Source: a virus. Taken from it: a stretch of 33,050 nt of DNA. Within the stretch, counting starts at the first letter, position 1. Each line of letters begins with the position of its first letter. Made by a program: the position numbers and the translations under genes. Location: the IMG/VR virus record IMGVR_UViG_3300008120_000291, positions 1 through 33,050 of that record. One strand, given 5' to 3'. Positions 17,487 through 27,762 of the stretch are shown here, piece after piece. The notes under the pieces were generated by a model. That model had not been told where the DNA came from. It ran no database searches and worked only from the letters and a program-made list of their open reading frames with translations.

Positions 17487-18365
17487 TTAATACTCTTTCT
17501 TTTCTCCTCCTTTAGTTAAATATGTTCTTACTGGTCCTTCTGGATATTCTTGACTTAAAAAATCCCTCATTTTCTCTATATTTCTTGGGTCGTCATCTGA
17601 AAACCCTATTTTTGGTGTGAACTCTTGGTTATTTATATCATTCTTAAAATAAGCCTTTTTCCCAATCTCCGCCGCTAAATCTTGACAATAAACAATAAAT
17701 TTTCTCATTGCAACAATCTTTAACTCCTCAGGGTTCGCAGCACTTCCTTGTCCAAAAGTTACGGGTTCATATACACAAAGGTCCAAATATTCGTCAATAA
17801 GTTCTTTATCTGAAAAATTTACCTCTATTTGTTCATTTATATTTTCTTCTTCTGAAAAGAAGTTTCTATATTTTTTGAGGTTTTCTATCAGGGTTCTACT
17901 GTTAATACCATTATGGTTACTCACAATAAAATTATAAACAGCTTCTCTTAATGCCGATGGATTATGACCCCTCGCAGTTATAATCGCAAAAATTGAACCA
18001 CCGTTTATACATTCAACAAAATCATTCCAAGACGGACCTGGTTTTGCTAACATCGAGTCAATGACAAATCTTTTGTCCCCCATTTCTTTAAAGAATCTGA
18101 ATGGTTCTTTTGCATAACCAACAACAGTAGTACCCTTATAACTAAATGGTTCACTACCTATTTGGTGTCTGTGTTCAGCAAAATCTTCAGTAGACATACC
18201 TACTTCTTCTTCATTTTCAGTCATTACCATAATTTTGGTTGACATAAAAACGATATTATCATCCCAATCAAAGGCGTAATATTTAGTGTCAGGTGTACCT
18301 GATTCATCAATACCTTCATTAACTACTTTTTTTAAGTAATTGTAAACATATTTTTTAATGTCCAT
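17487..18365 (-). CDS. HAD-superfamily phosphatase-like protein (292 aa)
   Basis: HAD-fold motifs are visible in order. Motif I is FDWDDN, with Asp33 as the likely nucleophile and Asp35 the general acid. Motif II is AIITARG, with Thr130. A lysine in the helix around 216-221 would be motif III, and GFSDDDPRN (254-262) supplies the motif IV acidic residues. This set is used by phosphatases such as the 3'-phosphatase part of T4 PseT, but no kinase domain is present and the substrate is unknown. The N-terminus (MDIKKYVYNYLKKVVNEG) is an amphipathic helix unlike usual HAD proteins. It overlaps the stop of the 45-residue gene by one base (TAATG) and lies between sheath and tube genes, an odd place for a metabolic enzyme. 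Confidence 0.75.
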   Translation of the reverse strand: MDIKKYVYNYLKKVVNEGIDESGTPDTKYYAFDWDDNIVFMSTKIMVMTENEEEVGMSTEDFAEHRHQIGSEPFSYKGTTVVGYAKEPFRFFKEMGDKRFVIDSMLAKPGPSWNDFVECINGGSIFAIITARGHNPSALREAVYNFIVSNHNGINSRTLIENLKKYRNFFSEEENINEQIEVNFSDKELIDEYLDLCVYEPVTFGQGSAANPEELKIVAMRKFIVYCQDLAAEIGKKAYFKNDINNQEFTPKIGFSDDDPRNIEKMRDFLSQEYPEGPVRTYLTKGGEKKEY

Positions 18366-23883: not shown

Positions 23884-24618
23884 ATGGAAGATTTTGTGCC
23901 TAAAACACCCGAATCAAAAGCCCTTTTAATTTTAGACGATTATGAAGGGTCAAATAACTATATCCTTAATTTAAAACACAAAAAACAAAATAGTAAGTCT
24001 TTTGTTCCTACACGACCTCAGGCCGATTATATCAATAACTATAACACGATACAACCAAAAGTTGCAAAAAAATGGGTCAAATTAGATTCATATTTTGGTA
24101 AAAAACTTATGGAGGATAAAATGTATACCAAAGAACCTTCAGAAATTTATGTTGAGAAGTTGTTGGTTGAAAAAGATAAAGCTTATCATATTTGGGGTAA
24201 AATCTTTTCAGGTGAAACTTTACACGATTTTTGGATGCCAAAATCGGCTTTATTAAAAGATAATGAAGTTAAAAACATTTCTATTGATTACGACAAATAT
24301 ACCCATAGACCTCCTATGGAACATCAAAAAGAAGCTATTGAAAAACTTGTAAAAAATAAAAAGTTTATTCTGGCTGATGACATGGGACTTGGTAAAACAA
24401 CATCAACTATCATTGCCGCTTTAGAAACGGGAGCTAAGAAAGTTTTAATTGTGTGTCCTGCGTCTTTGAAAATAAATTGGCAGAGGGAGATTGCAAATTA
24501 TTCAGATAGAACCGTATATATTGCAGAAGGTAAGAAATTTTCAGATGAACATGATTTTGTTATTGTGAACTATGATATCTTACAAATAGAGTTTGGTTGT
24601 TATCAGGAACACCTATGA
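23884..24618 (+). CDS. SNF2-type helicase, N-terminal fragment (Walker A, no DEAH box)
   Basis: The first ~140 residues are a family-specific N-terminal part. Then come MEHQKEAIEKLV (Q-like motif), FILADDMGLGKTTSTI (Walker A, residues about 163-176), VLIVCPASLKINWQREI (motif Ia) and DFVIVNYDIL (motif Ib, ending at residue 233). All are typical of SNF2/superfamily 2 DNA translocases. After this the frame runs into unrelated residues and stops, with no DEAH box or motif III. Those should follow about 45 residues later; motif III instead appears in another frame from 24588. The protein as encoded would bind but hardly hydrolyse ATP. It is probably one half of a gene broken by a deletion of about 140 bases near 24583-24590, or an assembly artefact. 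Confidence 0.75.
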   Translation: MEDFVPKTPESKALLILDDYEGSNNYILNLKHKKQNSKSFVPTRPQADYINNYNTIQPKVAKKWVKLDSYFGKKLMEDKMYTKEPSEIYVEKLLVEKDKAYHIWGKIFSGETLHDFWMPKSALLKDNEVKNISIDYDKYTHRPPMEHQKEAIEKLVKNKKFILADDMGLGKTTSTIIAALETGAKKVLIVCPASLKINWQREIANYSDRTVYIAEGKKFSDEHDFVIVNYDILQIEFGCYQEHL

Positions 24619-25505
24619 CATCCCGACCTATGAATTATTATAATTTATTAAATCTTGTTGATAGTCCTGTCGCTATGAATTGGATGGCATATGCTAAAAG
24701 ATATTGTAACGGATTCCAATTTAGTGTTGGGAAAAGAAAAGTGTGGAATGTTACAGGGGCATCCAATCTTGATGAATTAAGAGAAAGAACCTCAACTCAT
24801 ATCTTAAGAAGATTAAAAGAAGATGTTTTAGATTTACCTGAAAAAATTATCACACCTGTTTATTTAAGACTCAAATCAAAAGACTACGAAGAATTAATGG
24901 GTGAGTATTTTAATTGGTATGACCAAAACCCTGAAGAGTCTTCTTCACTTACAATTCAGTTTTCAAAATTGATGAAGGTAAGGAAAGTTATTGCACAAGA
25001 AAAAATTAATAACACAATTGAGTTAGCGGAAAACATTATAGAACAAGGTAAAAAGGTTATTATATTTACAAACTTTACCGACACGCTAAATCAAATCTAT
25101 AACCACTTTGGTAAATCTGCGGTTTATTTAGATGGTAGTTGTTCTAAGTTCCACAGACAAAATGCGGTCGATGAATTTCAAACAAACGATAAAATCAAAG
25201 TATTTGTTGGGAACTTGAAAGCTGCCGGTGTTGGGATTACTTTAACCTCAGCGGAAGCCGTAATCATGAATGATTTATCTTTTGTACCGGCAGAACATTC
25301 ACAAGCAGAAGACAGGTCACACCGAATCGGACAAAAAAATTCAACGTCGGTTTATTACCCTTTATTTGAAAACACAATAGAAGGAGCAATTTACGACATA
25401 TTAAATAGGAAAAAGAAAATCATTTCAACGGTAATGGGTGATGATACTTTTGACGAGGCATCAGTAATCGAAGAAATGTTAAATATGATTTCTAAAAGAA
25501 GGTGA
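24597..25505 (+). CDS. SNF2-type helicase, C-terminal fragment (motifs III-VI)
   Basis: Meaningful coding in this frame begins at about 24588 with RVWLLSGTPMTSRP, the motif III region of SNF2 helicases. The TTG at 24597 is only a nominal start. It continues with HILRRLKEDVLDLPEK, KVIIFTNFTDTLNQI (motif IV), AGVGITLTSAEAVI (motif V) and QAEDRSHRIGQ (motif VI), ending the second RecA-like domain. No plausible ribosome start exists inside SGTP, so this fragment is probably expressed only if the frame is restored. In T4-like phages such helicases help replication and recombination. Its stop at 25505 overlaps the next frame; the next ATG at 25517 follows 11 bases later. Confidence 0.75.
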   Translation: MLSGTPMTSRPMNYYNLLNLVDSPVAMNWMAYAKRYCNGFQFSVGKRKVWNVTGASNLDELRERTSTHILRRLKEDVLDLPEKIITPVYLRLKSKDYEELMGEYFNWYDQNPEESSSLTIQFSKLMKVRKVIAQEKINNTIELAENIIEQGKKVIIFTNFTDTLNQIYNHFGKSAVYLDGSCSKFHRQNAVDEFQTNDKIKVFVGNLKAAGVGITLTSAEAVIMNDLSFVPAEHSQAEDRSHRIGQKNSTSVYYPLFENTIEGAIYDILNRKKKIISTVMGDDTFDEASVIEEMLNMISKRR

Positions 25506-25513
25506 TATTTATA
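25506..25513 (+). promoter_or_regulatory. TATTTATA motif directly before the SOD fusion gene
   Basis: On the plus strand TATTTATACATATG places the motif 3 bases before the ATG at 25517, right after the helicase stop codon. Same orientation relative to the gene as the other copies. Confidence 0.4.
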
Positions 25514-25516
25514 CAT

Positions 25517-26602
25517 ATGAATGTAGAAATATCTTATAGAGGAATTACCCCTAAGACAGACCAAGAACTTCTTATTAAAAGGTTTATAAATTTTTTAAAA
25601 AAAGAATACCCATTAAAGGGTGATGTTAATATTGTCTTTACTAATAAAAGATATGGAACTATGACAACGGGGTCTAGAACCGACAAAAGCACTTTAAAGG
25701 TATTAGTAAAAGATAGGCTCAACAGAGATATATTAAGAACTTTATCCCATGAATGGCAACACGAATATCAAAGAACTGTGTTGAACAGAAAAAAAGGAAA
25801 AGATATAGGAGGTAAAAATGAAGATGATGCTAATGCAGCCTCAGGTAAAGATGTAAAAAATTTTGAAAAAAATAACAAAAAGTTAGAAGATATTATATAC
25901 ACTAAGTTTGAAAGAAAAATAAATGAGATAGAATCTAAATTAGATTTAATATCCACTGTCAAACAAAAAATAATCAACGAAATTAAACATATCAGTGTTG
26001 ATAAATTACCTTACCAATTCGATTCTTTAAATAAGTTTATTGATACTGAGACTATGAAAACTCATTACAATAAACACTACAAGGGTTATGTTGAAAAATT
26101 AAATGCAGAGTTAGATAAAGTTTCAGGTAAAGATTTAGATTTAGAAGAAATAATAATAAAAATTTCTAAATTCAACACAAAGGTTCGTAATAACGGTGGT
26201 GGTGCATTCAACCACGCACTATTTTGGAAAATGTTATCACCTAAAAATCAAGAAATTTCTGACCCAATAAAAAGTAAAATTGATAAACATTTCGGATCAT
26301 TCGAAAAGTTTAAAGAAAAATTTGAATCAGAAGCAAAAAGCAGATTCGGATCTGGTTGGGTTTGGTTAGTTTTAACTAAAACAAACGGGTTAAAAATAAC
26401 CACAACACCAAATCAAGACAACCCATTGATGGACATTGAAAAAAACGGAGGTTACCCCCTTTTAGGTTTAGATTTATGGGAGCATGCTTACTACCTGAAG
26501 TACAAAAATGAAAGAGATAAATACATCAATAATTTTTGGAAAGTAGTGAATTGGGGATTCGTTAATGATTTGTATACGACACAAATAAAAAGAAAATCAT
26601 AA
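25517..26602 (+). CDS. HExxH metalloprotease-like domain fused to Mn-type superoxide dismutase (361 aa)
   Basis: Numbering is from the ATG at 25517; an upstream GTG would add 5 residues. Residues 1-120 form a zincin-like domain with LSHEWQHEYQ (HExxH, His78/Glu79/His82) and EDDANAASGK about 25 residues later, a probable third-ligand site. Residues 120-162 are a lysine-rich helical linker. Residues 164-355 are a complete Fe/Mn superoxide dismutase: LPYQFDSL, MKTHYNKHYKGY, NNGGGAFNHALFW, FGSGWVWLV, NQDNPLM and GLDLWEHAYYLKY. Metal ligands appear as His183, His233, Asp319 and His323, with gateway His/Tyr kept. The Gly of NGGG and Gln of NQDNPLM are the MnSOD-type second-shell signature. It would convert superoxide to peroxide and oxygen. 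Both halves look intact; no signal peptide is seen. Confidence 0.88.
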   Translation: MNVEISYRGITPKTDQELLIKRFINFLKKEYPLKGDVNIVFTNKRYGTMTTGSRTDKSTLKVLVKDRLNRDILRTLSHEWQHEYQRTVLNRKKGKDIGGKNEDDANAASGKDVKNFEKNNKKLEDIIYTKFERKINEIESKLDLISTVKQKIINEIKHISVDKLPYQFDSLNKFIDTETMKTHYNKHYKGYVEKLNAELDKVSGKDLDLEEIIIKISKFNTKVRNNGGGAFNHALFWKMLSPKNQEISDPIKSKIDKHFGSFEKFKEKFESEAKSRFGSGWVWLVLTKTNGLKITTTPNQDNPLMDIEKNGGYPLLGLDLWEHAYYLKYKNERDKYINNFWKVVNWGFVNDLYTTQIKRKS

Positions 26603-26643: not shown

Positions 26644-27762
26644 ATGTCCACAGTAATAATCACAGAGCCTGAAAGAAGTAAACTTTACAAAAGGATTAAA
26701 AATCTTTTAGGAGCCCCTTTACGTTCTGTTGAATTGGAGGATGAAATGATGGATTCATTGTTGGAACTTTCTATTCAAGATTACGCACAACATGTTAATG
26801 ATTGGTTGATTGAAAGTCAGTGGTCCTCACTATATGGTCTTAATTTAGACGAACAATCCCTTACAAGAGCATTCACAACTAGATCGTTAGATTGGGAAAC
26901 ACAATATACTTACGCTTATTCTAAAATTGTAGGTTTACAAGCTGGCGGTGATTGGGTATTAAAAAAAGACTATATAGATTTAGTTGCAGGTCAACAAATA
27001 TATGAAATTCCCGCAGGTAGAGAAGTAAATGAATTATTATGGTTCACAAGATCAGAATTAGATGCTGCTTATTTTGACCCATTCATGGGAGGTTTTGGTG
27101 GATTTGGTGGTATTGGATTAGGTGGTGGTGCCGGATTTTCACAGATGGGGACAACAGGTAACTATTTCATTACACCCGCATTCGATATCCTTTTAAGAAT
27201 GTCGGACATTAATATCAAAAGAAGAATTATTACAGGTGACCTTACTTATAGAATTACTGCGTTACCTGAAGGAAAAAAGGCTCTTCATCTTATGAATGTA
27301 CCGGGTGGAAGATTTGATTTTGGAAATATTAATTTCCAAGAGTATAAAGTTTGGTATTGGTATTATGATACTTTTGACAGAGATAATTGTTTGAAGGCAA
27401 ATCCTGATATTGTTAAGTTACCTTCTGATGTCCCTATTGATGAAATGAGATGGGATGAACTTAATTCACCTGCTCAAACTTGGGTTAGAAGATGGTTTAC
27501 CGCATATTGTAAAGAAACTTTAGCAAGAGTTAGAGGTAAGTACAGTGGTAATCTTAAAACACCTGATTCTGAACTTACACTTGAGTACCAAAGTTTACAA
27601 ACTGAAGCCAAAGATGAAAAGGCTATGTTATGGGAAGAATTAAAGGCTAGACTCGAAAGATTAAGACCTGAAAAACAATGGGAAATAAAAGGCATTCAAG
27701 CTGAAAACATGAACAAGTCTTTGAAATTTAGACCATTTACAAGTCCATATACTGTTATATAA
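26644..27762 (+). CDS. Neck protein, gp13-like (372 aa)
   Basis: The C-terminal half matches T4 gp13: a WVRRWFTAYCKETLARVRGK helix, then a Gly/Pro segment and a helix of the LEYQSLQTEAKDEKAMLWEEL type. T4 gp13 (309 residues) ends with the same Trp...Tyr...Leu helix followed by a Gln/Glu-rich helix. gp13 is a neck protein that, with gp14, joins the filled head to the tail. An inserted Gly/Phe-rich loop at residues about 149-163 (GGFGGFGGIGLGGG) is unusual. The N-terminal helix (ERSKLYKRIKNLLG) resembles the family start. Its gene pair, gp14-like, is on the opposite strand about 2.8 kb away, so the T4 order is broken by the helicase and SOD genes. Confidence 0.75.
   Translation: MSTVIITEPERSKLYKRIKNLLGAPLRSVELEDEMMDSLLELSIQDYAQHVNDWLIESQWSSLYGLNLDEQSLTRAFTTRSLDWETQYTYAYSKIVGLQAGGDWVLKKDYIDLVAGQQIYEIPAGREVNELLWFTRSELDAAYFDPFMGGFGGFGGIGLGGGAGFSQMGTTGNYFITPAFDILLRMSDINIKRRIITGDLTYRITALPEGKKALHLMNVPGGRFDFGNINFQEYKVWYWYYDTFDRDNCLKANPDIVKLPSDVPIDEMRWDELNSPAQTWVRRWFTAYCKETLARVRGKYSGNLKTPDSELTLEYQSLQTEAKDEKAMLWEELKARLERLRPEKQWEIKGIQAENMNKSLKFRPFTSPYTVI

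Follow-up and report, generated by a model that had tools for sequence, protein, structure and literature searches.

A single open reading frame (ORF) of an uncultured phage encodes a zincin-like module, a disordered linker and a complete Fe/Mn superoxide dismutase (SOD), and the linkers of this protein family look like cut sites of the phage's own head protease. This resemblance suggests that the enzymes are packaged as a set and not as a single fused one. The frame lies in a 33-kb IMG/VR virus fragment (hereafter the window, the whole stretch of 33,050 nucleotides analysed). The phage belongs to an uncultured T4-like lineage without isolates that carries the SOD at a fixed place in its genome. 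Fusion to the zincin is frequent yet optional, the zincin being missing from many relatives. Not noted in the first-pass annotation of the window were the junctions with [L/I/V]xE, the late-gene motif and the C-terminal modules that can be exchanged.

The zincin–SOD frame and its relatives

The ORF could start at GTG 25502 or at ATG 25517, the latter being the start kept among relatives (Table 1). The uninterrupted frame reported at first reading is intact and occurs at 100% identity in three other IMG/VR contigs (L001, L002 and L058). At least 588 IMG/VR stretches encode a relative, and the best 80 of these are 55–100% identical and aligned across almost the full length. Two separate genes or a chimera at the junction, envisaged in the first-pass annotation, were not found in these sequences.

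The statement that no such fusion is known needs qualifying, as a relative from an uncultured Caudovirales (A0A6J5L953, 501 residues, 62% identical over 208 aligned columns) is already deposited in BFVD as a superoxide dismutase and probably belongs to the SOD family of the window. A literature search returned nothing on a zincin–SOD fusion or on a prohead-protease polyprotein. When isolate relatives were sought by DNA, a single 38-bp match was retrieved. Vibrio phage 2.275.O and the Pseudomonas PA5oct group also encode Fe/Mn SODs, which match the SOD part alone, at 25–32% identity, and come without a zincin. INPHARED SOD matches in Salmonella, Staphylococcus and Enterococcus records look like bacterial sequence and were left out.

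Table 1. Features of the zincin–SOD locus, in window coordinates
Feature	Position	Strand	Basis
Upstream gene for the SNF2-type helicase, split over two frames	23884..25505	+	
Late-gene-like motif TATTTATA	25506..25513	+	Directly upstream of the ORF
Zincin–linker–SOD ORF	25517..26602	+	361 aa from ATG 25517; single open frame
Zincin module, residues 1–120, HExxH...E gluzincin type, IrrE/ImmA-like motif	25517..25876	+	AF2 model, PDB folds, BFVD matches, dN/dS
HExxH motif, H78-E-W-Q-H82	25748..25762	+	H78, E79 and H82 invariant in 34 sequences
E102, putative third zinc ligand	25820..25822	+	Invariant, as is A105
Linker, variable and predicted disordered, ending I-I-N-E155, prohead-protease-like [L/I]xE site	25877..25981	+	pLDDT, invariance
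Fe/Mn superoxide dismutase domain, residues 156–361	25982..26602	+	Pfam; Z 26.6 to 6gsb; invariant active site
Metal ligand H183	26063..26065	+	Invariant; aligned to solved SODs
Metal ligand H233	26213..26215	+	Invariant; aligned to solved SODs
Q300, water-coordinating Gln of Mn-type SODs	26414..26416	+	Invariant
G317, X(D-2) position, typical of Mn-preferring SodFM1	26465..26467	+	Invariant; meaning per PMC10172142
Metal ligands D319 and H323 (D-L-W-E-H)	26471..26485	+	Invariant; aligned to solved SODs
Neck / head-tail adaptor gene, downstream	26644..27762	+	PHROG 211 Ad2, 1.1e-10; anchor for module survey

The SOD domain

Both halves of the SOD were recognized by Pfam above cut-off (Sod_Fe_N at residues 161–241, 5.7e-22; Sod_Fe_C at residues 250–350, 6.7e-41). 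The structural model, with the alpha-hairpin and the C-terminal domain fold, aligned to solved SODs with Z scores of 24–27. Its best match was the SodFM1-type Mn-SOD of Sphingobacterium sp. T2 (6gsb, Z 26.6, 2.5 Å over 203 residues, 42% identity; also 5a9g), with which it shares the fold, the metal ligands, the Gln and the Gly(D-2). The description of a complete SOD with all four metal ligands and the Mn-type second-shell Gly and Gln holds across the family: H183, H233, D319 and H323 are kept in every one of 46 dereplicated relatives, and the second-shell G228 and Q300 are equally invariant, together with Y191, G317, W321 and E322.

A Gln in the C-terminal half and a Gly two residues before the Asp ligand are the mark of Mn-preferring SodFM1 enzymes (PMC10172142). 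Both are present here (Q300 and G317). The HXXXHH motif is not matched, as an invariant Tyr188 (window 26078–26080) replaces its last His in the 46 relatives (H183-YNK-H187-Y188), and the SOD is therefore called SodFM1-like only. The text of the SodFM survey mentions no phage or virus (PMC10172142), and the PHROG search gave no match for the SOD beyond a weak one to phrog_20122. On the strength of the conserved residues and the model, we consider it very likely that the SOD is of Mn-type and catalytically active, the metal used being probably Mn. Its dN/dS of 0.006–0.12 indicates strong purifying selection.

In a tree with 64 bacterial SODs, the 46 phage SODs formed a single clade (support 100/100), with SODs of Bacteroidota as its nearest neighbours. 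Relative to the bacterial SodFM1-type enzymes, this clade is set apart by the invariant HxxxHY, the N-terminal leader ending in [L/I/V]xE and the fused modules. Among the 80 best cellular matches, all but about six were from Bacteroidota. Because of the single phage clade and these cellular relatives, one acquisition of the SOD fits, probably from or via Bacteroidota. The host is probably a member of Bacteroidota as well, in agreement with the best isolate match of the neck protein, a Flavobacterium phage.

The zincin module

The N-terminal domain had been read as HExxH zincin-like, and its H78–H82 motif, model fold and invariant residues all bear this out. Modelled in isolation with AF2, residues 1–130 take a zincin fold (pLDDT 94.7). 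In PDB comparisons (VIA-align), the model matched the YbeY-like 1oz9 (Z 9.6, 2.8 Å, 108 residues), the peptidase EryP (Z 9.5), M1 gluzincins/aminopeptidases N (Z about 9) and Wss1 (Z 8.8), and its BFVD matches included IrrE-like proteins from uncultured phages. Across 34 sequences, stand-alone cyanophage-type homologues among them, seven residues never vary (H78, E79, H82, E102, A105, R67 and D71). Stand-alone homologues are found in Synechococcus phage S-SRM01 (QPX48222.1, 32% identity) and B23 (gp332). We take the register of E102/A105 to match the E-x-x-A of IrrE-like peptidases. Given the fold and the invariant H78/E79/H82/E102, the module looks like a working gluzincin, and proteolytic activity is likely on this basis. 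It is also under strong purifying selection (dN/dS 0.016–0.15).

The zincin fold, HExxH plus E-x-x-A and the catalytic Glu are shared with IrrE/ImmA-like (M78) and gluzincin peptidases. Unlike the IrrE/ImmA-like proteins, the window zincin is minimal (about 120 residues), lacks the DNA-binding part, is fused ahead of an SOD and has no direct match to Pfam M78. Residues 1–155 of the window protein matched no Pfam family above cut-off; among the 34 zincin-domain members, 10 match M78 (PF06114), with 6.5e-5 as the best value. NCBIfam searches with the zincin gave chance-level matches, and a tblastn pattern scan of 84,980 genomes for a close bacterial source, which reaches close relatives only, retrieved no relative.

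The earlier proposal that the protease might act on the SOD is not supported by the comparison, in which repeated losses of the zincin have left SOD and linker in place. The same persistence disfavours the zincin as a regulator of the SOD. Elsewhere, a stand-alone zincin about 62% identical to the domain of L077 is encoded in a different phage context (L224:5001-5420), where its neighbours are lysozyme-like genes and another HExxH ORF. Another zincin–enzyme fusion is the 907-residue protein of Flavobacterium phage immuto (L085:4144-6867), in which a cytidylyltransferase-like region is joined to a related HExxH domain.

Genomic context and late-type motif

Gene order around the fusion is conserved: sheath and two tail-region genes on the minus strand, then helicase, fusion gene, neck gene and a small ORF on the plus strand, then DNA polymerase on the minus strand. 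Among 160 loci retrieved with the fusion protein as query, the C-terminal part of the helicase was present in 159 and the neck gene in 149, contig ends accounting for many of the absences. All 16 long contigs selected for carrying the fusion gene have exactly one zincin of its family and one SOD, within one ORF. The first reading had put the gene in a late-gene region, flanked by a broken helicase and a neck gene. The site is confirmed, but the helicase is broken in the window and intact in relatives, where it forms a single frame of about 590–611 residues. The split falls at window positions 24560–24640, where relatives hold extra sequence, and it follows from the single frame and this extra sequence that the window has either lost sequence or been misassembled here. 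Several relatives (L035:1373-2505, L036, L218, L221 and L226) have the helicase gene interrupted, at this point or close to it, by insertions of about 1.1 kb that behave like an intron or mobile element.

Of all 8-mers in the 60 nt before gene starts of the window, TATTTATA shows the strongest enrichment (7/14 copies, binomial p 1.4e-9); in reverse complement it reads as the T4 late motif TATAAATA. It stands in the sense direction ahead of virion genes at window positions 1086, 15892, 17414, 18521, 21820, 23839, 25506, 26611 and 26622. In dereplicated loci, TATTTAT was found upstream of the fusion orthologue (40/41), neck (44/44), sheath (36/36) and gp23313 (42/42), and was absent upstream of DNA polymerase (0/10) and of the second genes gp22069 (0/42) and o27770 (0/29). 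This pattern groups the fusion gene with the virion genes. Late expression of the fusion gene is quite likely from these data. TATTTATA is a putative promoter that lies only 3–10 nt from the ATG, which is close for a promoter.

Gain and loss of modules

For the module survey, loci were picked by their neck gene, without selecting for the fusion. The 158 loci so anchored comprised 119 with the fusion, 36 with an SOD and no zincin, one cut by the contig end and two without SOD. When the zincin state is mapped on the SOD tree, well-supported branches force at least seven changes, and parsimony gives 14. Near-identical SODs occur with and without the zincin (L036/L477 and L028/L474), and in L471 the zincin core has gone by in-frame deletion. 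Zincin-less SOD proteins retain a leader of about 30 residues, as in L513, where MIFKKLNEKINLIESKLGINSLLNESLINE precedes the proposed cut and IKKVSIEKLPY follows it.

At the other end, many second-clade relatives carry C-terminal modules of 150–430 residues that belong to several unrelated families. One of them has an invariant G...D...QxK, like PD-(D/E)xK nucleases, and D180...Q194-x-K196 is invariant in module family B and its short form, suggesting that family B is a PD-(D/Q)xK nuclease-like candidate. For this third, C-terminal module, searches of Pfam and PHROG gave nothing convincing. L598 and L610 have lost the SOD and retained the neck gene, the leader running directly into the short form of the nuclease-like module. 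An HNH-endonuclease-like ORF is found at the expected place of the SOD in L610 (688-1416).

Junctions resemble prohead-protease sites

Residues 131–160 of the linker have pLDDT under 50. Within a linker of 1.73 bits mean entropy, E155 and K157 are invariant in 46 of 46 relatives and position 153 is restricted to I, L or V. At the linker, [L/I/V]xE occurs in all 201 distinct SOD ORFs, whether or not they have a zincin (two read TILE), Val taking the first position in a few relatives. [L/I]xE is a weak motif, of which shuffled linkers often contain a copy, and a motif match is by itself weak evidence of cleavage. The spacers between SOD and C-terminal module have [L/I/V]xE in 37 of 37 cases, most often as a pair with one copy at either end. 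These sites mostly fall at two fixed positions, ahead of three different module families. In total, 73 spacer sites were observed against 28.3 ± 4.3 in shuffled sequences, a comparison in which related sequences are counted separately and independence is thus overstated.

The T4 prohead protease gp21 cuts after L/I-x-E, and propeptides processed by gp21 also direct cargo into the head (PMC9026906). Propeptides of giant phages can exceed 100 residues (PMC5694885). The gp21-family protease (Peptidase_S77) was detected above cut-off in five of 12 long relative contigs, and a Gp23 capsid protein with an invariant LINE|A in its N-terminal part in six of 10; both genes come from contigs that are fragments of relatives, the window having neither. 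After the proposed cut the phage SODs have M or I, then K, and the capsid site of the same phages has Ala. In the zincin-bearing form of the window the site is at residue 155, distant from the short N-terminal signals of T4, and zincin-less forms carry it on the leader of about 30 residues. The conserved E155 could also serve another purpose.

A proposed packaged cargo precursor and its alternatives

The retained leader, the invariant Glu in disorder, the motif ahead of unrelated modules, the late-type motif and the gp21-family protease make a cargo precursor the simplest account. We regard as evenly balanced the proposal that the gene encodes a late modular precursor, packaged in the prohead and cut by the prohead protease. 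Its fuller form, put at somewhat under even chances, is a cargo polyprotein of exchangeable enzymes (zincin, SOD, nuclease-like) that would be packaged and cut at the [L/I/V]xE junctions. A single gene slot would then supply each virion with several enzymes, for delivery or storage, one of them an antioxidant.

We infer packaging, cleavage, metal, activity, host and benefit as follows. At the core would be a stretch of about 30 residues, linker or leader, that closes with [L/I/V]xE, and behind it a catalytically competent SOD that probably uses Mn; an IrrE-like zincin may precede the leader and one of several unrelated modules may follow the SOD. The precursor would be made alongside the virion proteins and taken into the prohead through its leader, where the gp21-family protease would cut after the Glu of each junction and release the modules within the capsid, freeing the SOD about where stand-alone SODs begin. 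The SOD might then remove superoxide, either as a guard of packaged DNA and head proteins or, once ejected, inside the next host cell. Effector functions directed at the host could be the task of the zincin and nuclease-like modules, which would come and go with changes of host.

Among the closest parallels are the internal head proteins and Alt of T4, whose propeptides gp21 cuts, and the long propeptides of SPN3US and phiKZ head proteins, with which the family shares [L/I]xE, a gp21-family protease in relatives, the late-type motif and exchangeable cargo. In contrast to the T4 internal proteins, two or three enzymes are carried per chain, with a site at each junction, and packaging is here only proposed.

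The main rival is an ordinary late cytoplasmic Mn-SOD, that is, an auxiliary metabolic gene lowering superoxide in the infected cell, with the zincin as an independent protease for host takeover, joined to it only so that both are co-expressed, and the linker as a plain tether or autoproteolytic site. Active-site conservation and purifying selection fit any active SOD, other phage SODs are annotated in this way, and Fe/Mn SOD is listed as a viral auxiliary gene in a study of a Microcystis bloom (PMC12542629). This reading, which we consider possible and rather doubtful, does not account for the invariance of E155 in a disordered linker, for the leader kept after zincin loss or for one motif ahead of three unrelated C-terminal modules.

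An intact fusion resident in the virion, with zincin and SOD as one head-associated or structural polypeptide at the neck or capsid, would agree with the late-type motif and the place beside the neck gene, and chlorovirus PBCV-1 packages a late-expressed Cu/Zn SOD (PMC7019647). That enzyme (a245r) is likewise virus-encoded and late-expressed, but it belongs to an unrelated SOD family and virus, and its packaging is shown whereas ours is proposed. The zincin is dispensable, and L598 and L610 have dropped the SOD while the neck gene stays, which makes an intact structural fusion unlikely. An SOD fold repurposed for a non-enzymatic role, for example as a metal store or scaffold, would fit the unusual invariant Tyr188 in place of the last His of HXXXHH; it is very improbable given that 46 divergent sequences all keep the ligands, the counterparts of Tyr34, Gln146 and Glu170, and the second shell of the Mn type. 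An assembly chimera of two genes is ruled out for practical purposes by the three contigs with an identical ORF, the fixed slot and the hundreds of relatives sharing the junction.

If the cargo precursor reading is correct, a phage lineage keeps an antioxidant enzyme as a near-universal gene among its virion genes, and modules parted by head-protease sites would be a general way to swap virion cargo. It also becomes testable whether phages protect their own DNA or the next host from superoxide. Leaders of similar layout could then provide a sequence rule for predicting packaged proteins of uncultured phages.

Among the other proteins of these phages, those at L612:12700, L612:14361 and L625:9450 open with leaders like MKRIIKLTESDLVRIVKRVINE, a possible capsid-targeting signal, and leaders of similar layout, such as MSKIVRLTESDLKRIVSRVINE, are present on other proteins of two of these phages. 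On the minus strand of the window, the products of 17487–18365 and 158–868 have N-termini (MDIKKYVYNYLKKVVNEG... and MNIDKKIIEELKRFNQINSYILKEQ..., respectively) that also resemble leaders ending in [L/I/V]xE.
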